This document shows positions 6,642-20,081 of a stretch of DNA of 44,821 nt, one piece after another (the stretch's first letter is position 1; every line of letters begins with the position of its first letter). This stretch comes from a virus, in IMG/VR virus record IMGVR_UViG_3300005471_000027, positions 1 through 44,821 of that record, one strand, 5' to 3'. The translations under genes were made by a program, and so were the position numbers. The notes under the pieces are model-generated. The model was not told the origin of the DNA, did not search any database, and saw nothing but the letters and a program-made list of their open reading frames with translations.

Positions 6642-6872
6642 CTATCTCCTATGCGCCTCTAGGATCTTTGCCGCGGCTGCCTCGGCATTTATGAACATGA
6701 TGGCCCGATCTCTCCACCAGATTGACTGTTCCAGCAGTTCCCACGGCGCGACCCCGTAGTATTGCGCCGCTTTCACCAGGGTGTAATCCTCAGGACAGGC
6801 GCCCATCTTGCCACCCATTGCGAGCCAACGCCCCAGATTTACTTGTTCCCATTCATCTGAGGCGCTTGCAGG
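6642..6872 (-). CDS. Tail assembly chaperone, -1 frameshift extension (T part)
   Basis: Seventy-six codons without a proper start of their own, in the -1 frame relative to the upstream chaperone. If ribosomes slip at CCCAAAC (6872-6878), the 105 residues decoded upstream are fused to PASASDEWEQVNLGRW..., ending in ...AKILEAHRR, for a 181-aa G-T-like protein. The W-x-x-x-x-L-G-R-W-x-A motif and the Ala-rich helical end are typical of T-type extensions, which recruit the tape measure to tail-tube subunits. It stops seven bases before the tape measure start. Confidence 0.8.
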   Translation of the reverse strand, partial: PASASDEWEQVNLGRWLAMGGKMGACPEDYTLVKAAQYYGVAPWELLEQSIWWRDRAIMFINAEAAAAKILEAHRR

Positions 6873-7186
6873 TTTGGGCGCATGTCTTCTCCAAGGGCTT
6901 GCGCGATTTGCCGCATGAATGGGATGCCAAATTCGTCAATGCGTTCAATCGGGAACATCACGGGCGGATCCACGGTATCGTCTATGATGTCCCAGGATTT
7001 GATGAGAGTCGGGAAATACTCTTTATCCGTGACCTCTCCTGCCTGGGCTCTCGCTAGCAGCTCTTGTGTGAATTTGTTGGGATAATAGACAAGGTTGATC
7101 GTGACATCATCATTGTCCTCATCGCCCTTGATCACAAGCTTGACCTTTGCCGTTTTCGCGGCAATCTGTCTGAATGTAACTGGCAT
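6839..7186 (-). CDS. Tail assembly chaperone (G-like, 115 aa)
   Basis: A short acidic protein between tail tube and tape measure, the fixed position of lambda gpG-type tail chaperones. Residues 1-60 form a beta-rich start (VKLVIKGDEDNDDVTINLVYYPNKF) followed by helices. The ATG has AAAGGAG. The slippery heptamer CCCAAAC lies at codons 103-105, ten codons before the stop, and the -1 frame stays open into the T segment at 6642-6872. Both the short and the fused form are expected. Confidence 0.85.
   Translation of the reverse strand: MPVTFRQIAAKTAKVKLVIKGDEDNDDVTINLVYYPNKFTQELLARAQAGEVTDKEYFPTLIKSWDIIDDTVDPPVMFPIERIDEFGIPFMRQIAQALGEDMRPNLQAPQMNGNK
6872..6878 (-). promoter_or_regulatory. Programmed -1 ribosomal frameshift site CCCAAAC
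   Basis: On the minus strand the zero frame reads CGC CCA AAC CTG, so the heptamer C-CCA-AAC has the canonical X-XXY-YYZ form. Slipping by -1 joins the 115-aa chaperone to an open frame of 76 codons. Position, frame and gene order all match the tail-chaperone frameshift known from many siphoviruses. Confidence 0.82.
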
Positions 7187-14914: not shown

Positions 14915-16279
14915 TCACCTCCAAATGTCTCGATAATACGTCACGCCCGAGGGCTGTAGATCGAAGCGCGCGACCATGTAGCGGTCAGTATCCATCCCGT
15001 GATCGTTCTCTTTGACCGGCTCCTCTTTGACGCCCGTGGGTGTTTGCTTCCACACGTAGCTCTCAGGTTCTTCAATCGTGCAGGTCGGTTTCTTCTGCCG
15101 TGCCAGGTCTGGATCACGTTCTACCAGCGCATCACGGAAATGCATCAGGCGCGGCTTGCCGTCACCTGCGGCGCGATAGCGAGCAGCCGTTGCCTGAATG
15201 CCATCGCTCACGGTCTTGTGCGCTGCTGTGGTCATGAGCCCCGAATGCCGTTCAAACGTGGCGCGGTCCTCGGCGTCGTGGTCACAGATAACTTCCCGTG
15301 GCAACGGGTCGCCGTCTTTCTCTCCCCAGCGTGAGAGTTCCTTGATCTGCTTCGTGTGGTCTTCGACGAGGCGTTTGGTATAGTAGATTTCACGATAGCA
15401 GTAGAGTCGCCCGTCATCGTCGCGCGCATACCACTTGCAGCAGAACGGGTTGGTATAGCCGAAGTCGACGCACAGGTAGCGCGGCCACTCCTTCGGGACA
15501 GGGAAGCGGTCAATCACGTTGCGCGCTCTATCCCATGAGTCCTCGTACACCGTGCCTTCTGCTGCTACCCACAAACCTAGCCTATAGCGGGCATAGCGCA
15601 CACCAGTGAGGCCCTCAAGGATGCCGAAGATGTACTCGCGGCCCTCTTCGGTCCAGTCTTGTGTAGCAGCGTTCCAGTAGCGCGGATTGTCTTCGTGGCG
15701 CGAGAGCAAGCGTGTCGTGCGGCCCTCGTTCATGCGCTGATTGAGCCAGTGCGTTGGCGCATCGGGGTTCACATCCATAATGAGCTGACGGTACGGCACT
15801 TCAGGGCTATAGGTGCGTGGACGCAGGCGCATGCGCACAAACTCTGCGTCCTCCTGCTCGCACTCCGTGGCCTCGTTGATGTAGCCCCAATCGAACTCGG
15901 AGGAAAGCACTTTCTCCGGCTTGTCTAAGCCATTGACAATCATCTCGGAGCCGTTGGGATAGCGATAAGCGGCTGGTTCAGCCTTTGAGCCACCGAACCA
16001 GCGGATATCGGTACGATTGTGCAGGATGTTCTCACGGTAGGTCACCAACGCCGAACCTGCGAGCGCAACGTTGGTTTTCCTAGTGACCAATGCACGACTG
16101 CCAGGGTAGCGCGAAAGGAGCACGTGAATCTTGTAGAGTGCTGCGACAGTTTTGCCTGTGCCTGCCGGGCCATCAAGACACGCCTCGCGATCACGACACC
16201 AGCCGAGCGCCAAGTTGTTGCCACGTAGCTCGGGTGCAGCGATGCGGCGTTCGGTTGGGCGTGTGGCGAGTGTGGTCAT
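14915..16279 (-). CDS. terL: Large terminase subunit (454 aa)
   Basis: Packages DNA and cuts genome ends. The ATPase has Walker A GPAGTGKT at residues 37-44 and Walker B with the catalytic Glu at about 129-141 (FDWGYINEATECE). The RNase H-like nuclease has VDFGYTNPF (about 270-279), CDHDAEDR (about 332-339) and NDHGMDTDRYMVARFD (about 425-440). The ATG at 16279 overlaps the preceding stop (ATGA) and has GAGAGGAAG. Length is typical. Confidence 0.95.
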   Translation of the reverse strand: MTTLATRPTERRIAAPELRGNNLALGWCRDREACLDGPAGTGKTVAALYKIHVLLSRYPGSRALVTRKTNVALAGSALVTYRENILHNRTDIRWFGGSKAEPAAYRYPNGSEMIVNGLDKPEKVLSSEFDWGYINEATECEQEDAEFVRMRLRPRTYSPEVPYRQLIMDVNPDAPTHWLNQRMNEGRTTRLLSRHEDNPRYWNAATQDWTEEGREYIFGILEGLTGVRYARYRLGLWVAAEGTVYEDSWDRARNVIDRFPVPKEWPRYLCVDFGYTNPFCCKWYARDDDGRLYCYREIYYTKRLVEDHTKQIKELSRWGEKDGDPLPREVICDHDAEDRATFERHSGLMTTAAHKTVSDGIQATAARYRAAGDGKPRLMHFRDALVERDPDLARQKKPTCTIEEPESYVWKQTPTGVKEEPVKENDHGMDTDRYMVARFDLQPSGVTYYRDIWR

Positions 16280-16494
16280 GGCTTCCTCTCTACCCACTTT
16301 TTGAGAGCATCATCGTAGCCTGCCCTACGTACTAAGCGGTATACGGCTTGCTTCATTTCCTCCGTTGTCAGCGTGCATTGCTCAGGCGGGTATACCGTGA
16401 TACGCGGATAGTCAGGAGTATAGGGATACTCCCGCTCAACCGTGAGGCGCATACCAGTTTGCTCATCGGTGTATTCTTCTAGCTCTGCGCTCAT
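16276..16494 (-). CDS. Small protein between terminase subunits (72 aa)
   Basis: An acidic start (SAELEEYTDEQTG), a Tyr/Pro-rich beta middle (REYPYTPDYPRITVYPPEQ) and a helix ending KKWVERKP. It overlaps both neighbours by ATGA and has GGAGGG upstream, so it is translated with the terminase genes. No family recognised. Confidence 0.7.
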   Translation of the reverse strand: MSAELEEYTDEQTGMRLTVEREYPYTPDYPRITVYPPEQCTLTTEEMKQAVYRLVRRAGYDDALKKWVERKP

Positions 16495-16943
16495 TCTTTC
16501 GGGCCCTCCAAGTAATTGAGAGGTACTTCCTGGATGATGATGCTCGGCCCTGGCATGTCATCTGTCTTCACATCAAGACCCATCAGTTCGGAGATACGCT
16601 TGCTATAGTTGGCGACACGATCAGCGGCCCAGTGCCAGTTCGGGTCTTTCTCATCCAAGGCAACCTTGTAGGACCGTGCCTGTATCTGTTGGAGCATGTA
16701 GAGCTGCTGGTCCCGTAGTTCTTTGACATCGTGTGTGATGCAGCGGCCCAATTCGCGCATGACGGCATGGTGCGCTGCGCCGCGTGATTGATAGCCCGAT
16801 TGCGCTGCCACCTCATCCCAGTTGAAGCCCTGCAACTTGAGCCTGAGCGCCGTCTGCACCCGTTGCGCTGCATTGACATCCCGCGTGGTTGTACCTCTAA
16901 CGTTGTCATGCTTGCCTTTGCGCGATGGATAGTTGACGCTCAT
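16491..16943 (-). CDS. terS: Small terminase subunit-like protein (150 aa)
   Basis: Residues 27-62 carry a helix-turn-helix (ALRLKLQGFNWDEVAAQSGYQSRGAAHHAVMREL), followed by a helical oligomerisation region and ...RVANYSKRISELMGLD, a phrase typical of small terminase subunits. A short C-terminal tail (SIIIQEVPLNYLEG) may contact the large subunit. ATGA overlaps on both sides put it in one unit with the large subunit. Confidence 0.8.
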   Translation of the reverse strand: MSVNYPSRKGKHDNVRGTTTRDVNAAQRVQTALRLKLQGFNWDEVAAQSGYQSRGAAHHAVMRELGRCITHDVKELRDQQLYMLQQIQARSYKVALDEKDPNWHWAADRVANYSKRISELMGLDVKTDDMPGPSIIIQEVPLNYLEGPKE

Positions 16944-17206: not shown

Positions 17207-17874
17207 ACTTGTGTAACCTCCATCTTTTCTACCCAATCAAGAAATTGTGGCATTGGCTCTCCTAATACGATGTTATCCTTATAGCTCCATCGCTTAAGAA
17301 AGAGACCTGTAGTCTGATACACATCCCAATCCACAGCAAGAAATGTAGCCCAAGAGCCATCAAGATCACGTGACTCTTTCTCCCAAACTCCTGTGGAGTT
17401 ATAGGCTACGCGGTGAAAGCGATGTGAAGCAAAAGTCTTAACTGCCCAGGGGATTAGTTCATGAGTATAGGCTACTGCGACAGAAAGCAAGCTAGTGCGC
17501 TGCTCGTTCATATATGCTTGCACTGTGATATGTGGATAGAGATAACCCTCATGACGGTGAGCAAGTTGCCAAAGTCGTTTGGGGATTTCGGTATCTCTCT
17601 TACTGCTTCGCGATTTGCGAAGAGTAAATGTATGCCAATCTCTATCTCCCCACTGTATCCTTGAAGCGATGCCACGCATCACGCACTTCTCAAGTCGTTT
17701 CTGAAAACCATCAATACCCGCGTACATATCAAGATCTTGAGTTAGTAAGGTTCCAGCTGCACTTTCGACTGGATAATAATCTCCGCCTCCTAGCCAATCG
17801 CTGATAGCAGGCCACACGAAGCGCGGCATATCAATGGCACTTTTGCTTAAATTGGCCTCAACTGCTGCTCTCAT
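17203..17874 (-). CDS. Nuclease-like protein of unknown role (223 aa)
   Basis: A central block, about residues 45-115 (DLDMYAGIDGF...GIASRIQWGDRDWHTFTLRKSR...TEIPKRLWQLAH...YPHITVQAY), recalls phage proteins that I associate, from memory, with restriction-endonuclease-like folds: an acidic residue, GIASRIQ and T-F-T-x-R-K. This is inference, not proof of nuclease activity. The ATG overlaps the methyltransferase stop (ATGA) and has GAGGTAAGG. It could be a partner for the Bet annealase encoded upstream. Confidence 0.6.
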   Translation of the reverse strand: MRAAVEANLSKSAIDMPRFVWPAISDWLGGGDYYPVESAAGTLLTQDLDMYAGIDGFQKRLEKCVMRGIASRIQWGDRDWHTFTLRKSRSSKRDTEIPKRLWQLAHRHEGYLYPHITVQAYMNEQRTSLLSVAVAYTHELIPWAVKTFASHRFHRVAYNSTGVWEKESRDLDGSWATFLAVDWDVYQTTGLFLKRWSYKDNIVLGEPMPQFLDWVEKMEVTQV

Positions 17875-19001
17875 TGCCTTACCTCACATCCCCTCTGCTC
17901 TGCTATCTGTAGCATGTCCTCTGAGCAATCGCACCCATAAGCCTCACGCCCTAAGCGATGAGCTGCAAGTAAGAATGTGCCAGTGCCAGTAAAGCAATCA
18001 ATCACTCTATCCCCTGGCTTCGTGCTATGCCTGATAAGCCGCTCTGCTAACTCATCGGGCTTTTGCCATGCATGATAGCGGTTACCTACACGTCCATCAG
18101 GGGCATTGATTTCTTGTGCACTAAACTGCTCGTTCATGATGGGACAATCAAGCGGAGGTGCTTCCTCTCCAACAAAGTAGAGGATTGCTTGCCAGTTCTG
18201 CTTATAACCATAGAGCGGTGATGGGCCTAGGGTATTGCGGTAACTCCACACAAGCACTTGCTGTACAGGCATACACGCCTGTACATTAAGATAGGCTTGC
18301 AGTTCTTGAGGATAAGCGCCAATACAGACATAGGCACGGCCTGTTCTCTTGACCTTTGAGAGAGCAAGAGGGAGCCATGCATTAGCAAATGAAGTGATAT
18401 CATCTATGTCAGTAGCGTAAGGGGGATCGGTAATCAGGAGATCACACATCTCCTGCTGTGGAAGCCAAACCTCCCAGGATGCAAGAGTGATAAGTGGCTT
18501 AGTAGGGGCCGCTTGCGCTTCTGCATCCCGCTCTGCTTTCTTGTCTTCAAGGTCTCGCTGTTTTGCCAGTTTGAGGACACTCGCCTGGGTTAATTCTTTG
18601 CGCTTGTCCTTTGCTTCTGCAATGTGCTGCTCGAATGTCTCTTCTGGCAAGTCATCTATAGTCTGGCAACGTGACGACTCATTTTTCGTGATGCCGATGT
18701 CTTCAAGCTTAGGCGGGAGTGCGGTCCCATGATGGGACCGCACTCCATATTGCTTTCCTAGTCCCTTCGCCCCTTCATTCTTCGGCATTTCTTTCAGCAG
18801 TTCACCCATAGCACGCTCACAGCGCAGGATAGCCTCTGCCGCGTTGTGCCGATCATCAAAAAGCCAACCATGCTTTTTTCCATACTCAAGAAGAGCTTCG
18901 ACTTTATCTCTGATCTCTTTTAACTCTTGGATAGAGCGAGCGGTTGCAATATCTCGTTTTAGCTGATCCAAGTTCACTACAGAACGCTCTACAGTTGTCA
19001 A
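17871..19001 (-). CDS. ParB-like N-terminus plus DNA methyltransferase (376 aa)
   Basis: The C-terminal half is a beta-class adenine/N4-cytosine methyltransferase: DPPY at residues 192-195, HAWQKPDEL at about 310-318 and the AdoMet motif DCFTGTGTFLLAA at about 335-347. The N-terminal 165 residues are helical and charged (ParB-adaptor-like) and contain an ITKNESSRCQTI element. The start is TTG with AAGGAGG seven bases upstream, overlapping the previous stop. It probably marks phage DNA against restriction. Codons 86-96 contain a 31-bp perfect palindrome. Confidence 0.85.
   Translation of the reverse strand: MTTVERSVVNLDQLKRDIATARSIQELKEIRDKVEALLEYGKKHGWLFDDRHNAAEAILRCERAMGELLKEMPKNEGAKGLGKQYGVRSHHGTALPPKLEDIGITKNESSRCQTIDDLPEETFEQHIAEAKDKRKELTQASVLKLAKQRDLEDKKAERDAEAQAAPTKPLITLASWEVWLPQQEMCDLLITDPPYATDIDDITSFANAWLPLALSKVKRTGRAYVCIGAYPQELQAYLNVQACMPVQQVLVWSYRNTLGPSPLYGYKQNWQAILYFVGEEAPPLDCPIMNEQFSAQEINAPDGRVGNRYHAWQKPDELAERLIRHSTKPGDRVIDCFTGTGTFLLAAHRLGREAYGCDCSEDMLQIAEQRGCEVRQ
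18716..18746. repeat. 15-bp perfect palindrome with 1-base centre inside methyltransferase gene
   Basis: Arms 18716-18730 (GGAGTGCGGTCCCAT) and 18732-18746 are perfect inverted copies around a single G. It is in the linker between the ParB-like and catalytic parts of the methyltransferase. It could be a protein-binding site or an RNA hairpin. Confidence 0.9.
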
Positions 19002-19227: not shown

Positions 19228-19350
19228 TCAGTGAGCGAACAGCCACACGTAGGCGCCGCTATAGCCTAGCAGGATAGCAGCAGCTGCGAGCAGGGTGGTT
19301 TTGTGCCACGGTGGGAGCTGCCTCCAGGTGCCCTGCATGTCGATGTCCAT
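19228..19350 (-). CDS. Mini membrane protein (40 aa)
   Basis: ATG with AAGGAGG eight bases upstream. The sequence MDIDMQGTWRQLPPWHK is followed by one hydrophobic helix (residues 19-38). It is the first ORF after the strong terminator at 19379-19412, so it may be the first gene of the late transcript. Function unknown. Confidence 0.65.
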   Translation of the reverse strand: MDIDMQGTWRQLPPWHKTTLLAAAAILLGYSGAYVWLFAH

Positions 19351-19378
19351 GTGTGCCTCCTTGCTGGCGTCGAGCAAC

Positions 19379-19412
19379 AAAAAACGCCCCTGATCTTCTC
19401 AGATCAAGAGCG
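19379..19412 (-). terminator. Rho-independent terminator (minus strand) before late genes
   Basis: The minus strand forms a 12-bp stem (19401-19412 with 19385-19396, two G-U pairs) around a four-base loop, followed by TTTTTT (19384-19379). It lies 29 bases before the next ATG, in the leader of the late gene run. An antitermination or attenuation point is likely. Confidence 0.85.
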
Positions 19413-19764
19413 CCTGCATGGGCCGAAGGCCCGCGTTATCAGCACTTAGGATGGAAGCTGAGCCTCTTGTGTACCCTCCCCTGACATGCAGCATAGGGAT
19501 AGTCACTGCATGCCCTCATCGCCTATCCTGCGAAACGGGCCATTGTCAAGAGGCTCTCATAGCCTGCTCCCCTGGCTAGTCACTGTCAATAAAAATTGGG
19601 GTAGGGAGGCTGGCCCTGCATGATCAACAGGGCGTTTCCGCTAAAGCGCGCCGCGGCGTTCTGACTAGATCATCCCTGAACTACAGCCTCTATGTATGTC
19701 CCTGACGGGACGCTTGCTGCTGGCCTATATTTATTCCAGCCGACCAGCGGGCTTGGCTGGGGTA
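19413..19764 (-). ncRNA. Candidate structured RNA/leader, gene-free
   Basis: No ORF with a ribosome binding site was found in this stretch. It is rich in inverted repeats: GAGCCTCTTG/CAAGAGGCTC (19460-19469 with 19547-19556), CATGCAG/CTGCATG inside it, GGGCC-GAA-GGCCC (19420-19432), GCCCTG/CAGGGC near 19633, and GTCCC-TGAC-GGGAC near 19702-19715. It ends in the terminator at 19379-19412. Two TTGACA hexamers on the minus strand lack convincing -10 boxes. It could be an independent RNA, or a long structured leader. Confidence 0.5.
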
Positions 19765-19989: not shown

Positions 19990-20081
19990 GGGTCACCTAC
20001 AAGAAGAAAGGTCTATGGGAGTAGTATAGCCTACAAAATGACCGCTTGCAAGATGTGGTACACTAAAGGTTCAAATCCGTG

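Follow-up and report, generated by a model that had tools for sequence, protein, structure and literature searches.

The late genes in a group of uncultured soil phages are preceded by a conserved 74-nt RNA element, in which an intrinsic terminator shares one of its arms with a predicted alternative helix. The element is real, conserved and cis-acting, and very probably serves the late operon as a conditional terminator. We estimate the probability at about 0.7 that it operates as a terminator/antiterminator switch in the leader RNA, which would control the entry of the polymerase into the late operon.

Only for a rather small number of phages is it understood how the late genes are controlled, and in most of these cases the agents are Q-like proteins, phage sigma factors or polymerases. 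If our reading is true, a competing-helix switch heading the late operon would represent a different solution, used by uncultured soil phages, and the element probably decides whether the late genes switch on. The 74-nt sequence can be tested directly, and the factor that would bind its highly conserved face is worth searching for. The first-pass annotation of this DNA had recognised no known RNA family, and Rfam indeed yielded no match, either at the gathering threshold or at E-values up to 5. The element would thus constitute a new RNA family, with a kind of logic that is already known.

Position and distribution of the element

The window, by which we mean the whole stretch of 44,821 nt analysed (IMG/VR virus record IMGVR_UViG_3300005471_000027), had been described as containing a gene-free, hairpin-rich region of 390 bases that ends in a strong terminator. 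The minus strand of 19351-19764 contains no supported ORF, and the region is not translated throughout in the relatives. A terminator scan found both the hairpin and the T run (19384-19379), and the 10-bp long-range stem is present exactly as annotated. The next ATG (19350) lies close by, 28 nt past the T run, as had been noted to within one base, but it opens an ORF of 40 amino acids rather than a terminase gene. The late run, with the capsid and tail genes of the phage, had been supposed to begin with the terminase. Two small genes come first instead, then one for a methyltransferase and two unknown ones, and the terminase genes are reached about 2.4 kb beyond this ATG. The order of the run is the 40-aa ORF, a 73-aa ORF, a DNA methyltransferase, two matchless ORFs, the likely TerS, a small ORF, TerL, portal and scaffold. 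A perfect 14-bp inverted repeat, GGAGTGCGGTCCCATGATGGGACCGCACTCC, lies at 18716-18746 inside the methyltransferase gene (17871-19001), and in one relative a second tRNA (Asn; L002:9015-9089) is located inside the start of the late run. The same strand encodes RecT, a second methyltransferase and small ORFs ahead of the site, which thus marks the border between the recombination genes and the late run.

Table 1. Features of the leader region and the late genes in the window, with the evidence for each
Feature	Position	Strand	Evidence
Promoter-like site (predicted), TTGCAA-17 nt-TATACT	20023-20051	-	Sequence scan
Leader gene, 74 aa	19765-19989	-	Homologues in six phages, each preceding the element
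tRNA-like cloverleaf, acceptor GAGGCTG/CAGCCTC, D-type and T-type arms	19606-19690	-	Fold
Accessory 5′ module, 134 nt	19449-19582	-	Shared with L002 and L085 at 97% identity; no copy in the other five relatives
Conserved 74-nt element, a proposed switch (antiterminator and terminator)	19375-19448	-	Covariance-model matches in eight phages
P0 5′ strand, AAGUGCUGAU (antiterminator strand)	19438-19447	-	Pairs with 19408-19419; three two-sided compensatory pairs
P1 hairpin, GGGCC-UUC-GGCCC	19420-19432	-	Compensatory changes in relatives
P0 3′ strand, AUGCAGGCGCUC; some bases bulged; partly shared with the terminator 5′ arm	19408-19419	-	Covariation and partition function of growing transcripts
Terminator hairpin, GGCGCUCUUGAUCU / AGAUCAGGGGCGUU, then T run to 19379	19383-19414	-	Stem kept in 8/8 phages despite many sequence changes
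ORF of 40 aa that opens the late run; preceded by GGAGG; a single hydrophobic stretch	19228-19350	-	Kept in L002, L083 and L085
Terminase small subunit, TerS (likely)	16491-16943	-	Position and helix-turn-helix match
Terminase large subunit, TerL	14915-16297	-	PHROG/Pfam and homologues

The source is an uncultured soil phage group, and the window record has no cultured close relative. A terminase-based search identified L002, whose TerL is 93% identical, and searches with the small genes and with sequence patterns added L083, L085, L086, L095 and L098. Nucleotide and protein searches of cultured phages, plasmids and E. coli returned chance matches or none. Four matches from a genome-wide pattern scan were also judged to be chance, two of them in Bradyrhizobium loci that form a different perfect hairpin and the others without the flanks and terminator. 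When viral contigs were scanned with looser patterns, most matches fell in coding sequence, and the best of the last scan, L190, lies within an ORF. Actinobacterial phages have the nearest terminases (about 44-50%), a resemblance that does not in itself assign a host.

A covariance model, R1, was built from seven phages and used to scan 86 sources, mostly terminase relatives, comprising 1.1 Mb. Beyond its own seven, a single weak match was accepted, in the distant L006 (7468-7541; 18 bits, E 0.38), which reaches an E-value of 0.0086 when scored within its own record. We accepted L006 as a member because the match is on the right strand, about 2.5 kb upstream of the terminase gene, has a strong terminator, and is preceded by a leader gene, a tRNA and a structured stretch. 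The other terminase relatives among the 86 sources gave no R1 match, and many of their contigs end too early upstream. A second candidate, G003:27600, was dropped as it lacks a terminator, and the view that L083 lacks the element was rejected, since a diverged form with a longer P1 is present there. The carriers therefore number eight: the window, six phages with the same 74-aa leader gene, and L006. In all eight, a small leader gene precedes the element and the late genes or operon follow it; both sequence and fold reveal an intrinsic terminator hairpin with a U run upstream of the late genes.

The last 70 nt fold far beyond shuffled sequences (z -3.9; 0/200 shuffles), whereas the whole 395 nt exhibit a modest excess of structure (minus strand, z -2.0; plus strand, z -1.5). 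The position of the last 74 nt is constant across the family and the upstream sequence is mosaic. The proposal of a structured phage RNA thus holds for a terminator-ended RNA heading the late genes, but not for a single RNA of 390 bases, as the family-wide conservation covers the last 74 nt only and the 5′ parts have been exchanged from phage to phage. Several pieces make up the mosaic of the larger 390-nt region, and those on its 5′ side may be independent RNA or cargo.

Competing helices in the leader RNA

The element has the layout UAAGUGCUGAU-NN(N)-GC-GGGCC-UUC-GGCCC-AUGCAGGCGCU, followed by the terminator. In its conserved first 40 nt, the helix P0, formed by AAGUGCUGAU and AUGCAGGCGCU(U) with bulged bases, encloses the hairpin P1. 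Compensatory changes were present in the alignment of the homologues, and they lie in the last 74 nt of the region. On alignment A6, which holds eight sequences and was fitted to the covariance model, 90% of the P0 cells are paired, with three two-sided changes, a result matched by 1/500 shuffles; sliding the register of the partner strand left only 20-58% paired. The two-sided changes are G-C to A-U and A-U to U-A in L006, and C-G to U-A in L083, and one U-G to C-G change occurs in addition. P0 and P1 together have five two-sided pairs (0/500 shuffles), of which P1 contributes two; its changes are C-G to G-C and G-C to G-U in L095 and L098, and G-C to A-U in L006. The P0 core varies in only two of the eight sequences, L083 and L006, the former with one C-C mismatch, and a plain, unfitted alignment without L006 retained a single two-sided change, reached by 70/500 shuffles. 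Taken alone, P0-P1 does not reach significance by folding energy (z about -1.7 in the window, near 0 in L006 and L083). All eight sequences restore the pairing of the terminator stem, even L083 and L006, in which the arm in common with P0 differs. These comparisons, of moderate depth, indicate that an alternative helix overlapping and excluding the terminator is kept by covariation. The flanks of P0 and P1 are conserved beyond the needs of pairing, which would suit a putative binding site; a conserved protein site before a plain terminator is a less probable reading of the same data.

P0 and the terminator are mutually exclusive, since the terminator 5′ arm begins within the 3′ strand of P0. 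By partition functions of growing transcripts, up to a length of about 60 nt the shared arm belongs to P0 with a probability of 90-100%; by about 64-66 nt, at the beginning of the U run, the probability that it belongs to the terminator is 94-100%. The calculation ignored the polymerase footprint and covered five sequences (the window, L086, L095, L098 and L006), all of which behaved alike. The calculated timing is that of a switch, in which the antiterminator would form first and be displaced at the last moment unless stabilised.

We therefore envisage the following course of events. The transcript would begin at the TATACT promoter, at about 20020, and would pass through the 74-aa leader gene and then the accessory pieces before reaching the element. 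As the RNA emerges, P0 would close around P1. If P0 were unheld, the terminator 3′ arm would displace it as the U run forms, and transcription would stop at about 19379. If a factor occupied P0-P1, the terminator 5′ arm would be sequestered and the polymerase would run into the late genes. The proposed factor would be a phage or host protein, a small ligand being less likely, and the 74-aa leader protein is an attractive candidate. A more elaborate version, an autogenous switch in which this upstream-encoded protein binds P0-P1 in place of a Q-type polymerase-bound factor and the tRNA and 134-nt module serve as an add-on sensor or timer, is speculative and in our judgement rather unlikely.

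The leader gene and the variable sequences before the element

The putative promoter recurs in the relatives. A TATACT (or TATAGT) box stands at the same place before the leader gene in L002, L085, L083, L086 and L098, that is, where the contig of the relative reaches far enough, and L006 carries a promoter-like site of the form TTGACA-18-TATAGT. Upstream of its leader gene, L098 also contains repeated promoter- and terminator-like stretches (TGCTATACTAC, GTTGATGGTTTAC and CGTTTGCTTCATG) in gene-poor sequence at 6668-6790 and 7030-7150 on the minus strand.

The homologues of the 74-aa leader protein are 68-77% identical, with invariant C4, C13, H19 and H24, and most members bear a lysine-rich tail. 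The protein has no match in Pfam or PHROG, and its assignment to the DUF2292 domain was discarded for want of a match. An AlphaFold model was of low confidence (pLDDT 54), too poor for a structure search. The kinship of the L006 leader protein with this family is unconvincing (hhalign probability 3%).

Between the leader gene and the element, the window contains a tRNA-like cloverleaf with a 7-bp acceptor; its D loop has 16 nt and its T loop 9 nt, and 6 nt of the one can pair with 6 nt of the other (AUGAUC with GAUCAU). Both ARAGORN and the tRNA covariance model rejected it and no tRNA was found in the window; the cloverleaf is degenerate and not recognisable as a tRNA. At its place, L002 and L085 carry a true tRNA-Met, directly upstream of the 134-nt module. 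In L006, a tRNA at the detection border (7071-7166; 28.9 bits), with about 33 extra nt in the anticodon arm, lies directly upstream of a 300-nt structured stretch (z -2.9) and the switch.

The 134-nt module contains the 10-bp stem (19547-19556/19460-19469) and a possible H-type pseudoknot (19523-19528/19497-19502 with 19506-19513/19484-19491). Its folding energy is not significant (z -0.7), and the variation among the three phages that carry it is too small for a pairing test. Its 97% identity, against 72-89% for most neighbouring genes where these are aligned among the window, L002 and L085, suggests either recent exchange or strong constraint. In the other relatives, its place is taken by an extra ORF (L095, L098), by tens of nt (L086) or by a few nt (L083). 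A pairing of the module stem with the terminator arm, seen in the window and L085, was dismissed, as it is not kept in L002.

Alternative explanations and known systems

The element could instead be a constitutive intrinsic terminator of a leader or early transcript, overridden by a polymerase-bound factor of the lambda Q, phage 21 Q or Xp10 P7 type, with the conserved 40 nt as a loading or pause site. Such an arrangement agrees with a strong terminator at the early/late border and with the few varying sequences behind P0, and protein antiterminators are the best-known late-gene solution (PMC7171158, PMC6624301). However, it does not predict that P0 covaries with a strand overlapping the terminator, and the window proteins scanned, which included part of the small ORFs, gave no PHROG match to Q, although Q-like proteins are often unrecognisable; we consider it unlikely. 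Attenuation controlled by the ribosome, in which translation ending before P0 or crossing it picks the fold, would accord with the stop codon found 3-4 nt before the element in L083 and L098, and with a weak GTG frame through P0 in the window, L085 and L002. Yet the distance from the upstream stop varies, being tens of nt in L086 and L095, and with a tRNA and module intervening in three phages, and the frame is not kept family-wide, which leaves this mode of control very improbable. The inverted repeats, some 3 kb from the terminase genes, could also be taken for a DNA site of the cos/pac, attachment or centromere-like kind. We give this hardly any credence, as the changes preserve RNA pairing, G-U pairs included, the element is strand-specific and terminator-ended, and the 5′ part rich in inverted repeats is absent from most relatives.

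The conservation of the 134-nt module raises the question of whether module and element together form a stable small RNA acting in trans beside a tRNA, as GOLLD and ROOL do, the element providing the 3′ end and terminator. The identity of the module relative to its flanking genes is in keeping with this, as are the structured stretch in L006 and the tRNA-Met directly upstream in two phages, since GOLLD env-38 was likewise identified downstream of a Met-tRNA (PMC12286853). Against it, GOLLD, ROOL and all other non-tRNA families of Rfam gave no match, and five of the eight phages lack the 5′ module, with other sequence, ORFs or nothing in its stead, while the 3′ element stays. A trans-acting RNA thus seems distinctly unlikely. 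The terminator/antiterminator switch remains our preferred reading, and the view of the first-pass annotation that late transcription may be controlled here is borne out as likely by the covariation at a terminator-ended element before the late genes.

By its logic, the element would be closest to the RAT sequences recognised by BglG, SacY and LicT, in which the 3′ side of a bulged hairpin overlaps the 5′ foot of a terminator, the two folds are exclusive, and the bound protein favours the hairpin (PMC9981650, PMC3369936). This likeness is one of competing hairpins rather than of sequence scoring, and here the target is a phage late operon instead of a sugar operon. No BglG/SacY-type (CAT/PRD) protein or sugar PTS gene was found among the window proteins scanned against PHROGs and Pfam, and the host could encode such a protein. 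The put sites of HK022, two stem-loops behind the early promoters, bind the polymerase and act on distant terminators (PMC9378689). Like putL and putR, the element belongs to a phage leader, has a length of about 70 nt and would take part in antitermination, but it comprises one bulged stem with an inner hairpin, has its own competing terminator and lies more than 500 nt behind the presumed promoter.

With the PR′-Q-tR′ arrangement of lambda, as with phage 21 Q and Xp10 P7, the region shares a terminator between the promoter and the late genes that is presumably overridden late. Lambda Q loads on the polymerase at a pause via a DNA element (PMC7171158). The lambda late terminator, offered earlier as an analogy, fails as a model of the mechanism, because the RNA here carries a helix competing with the terminator, which lambda tR′/Q does not need. 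The opposition of antiterminator and terminator also recalls the two-hairpin antiterminators of ANTAR proteins, T-boxes and metabolite riboswitches, whereas here P0 encloses only one small hairpin; the Rfam covariance models of T-boxes and riboswitches gave no match. As with GOLLD and ROOL, a phage RNA near tRNA genes combines a conserved 3′ part with a variable 5′ part, but the element is far smaller and its conserved part is centred on a terminator. The element was assigned to none of these families, and would work like an attenuator/antiterminator switch.
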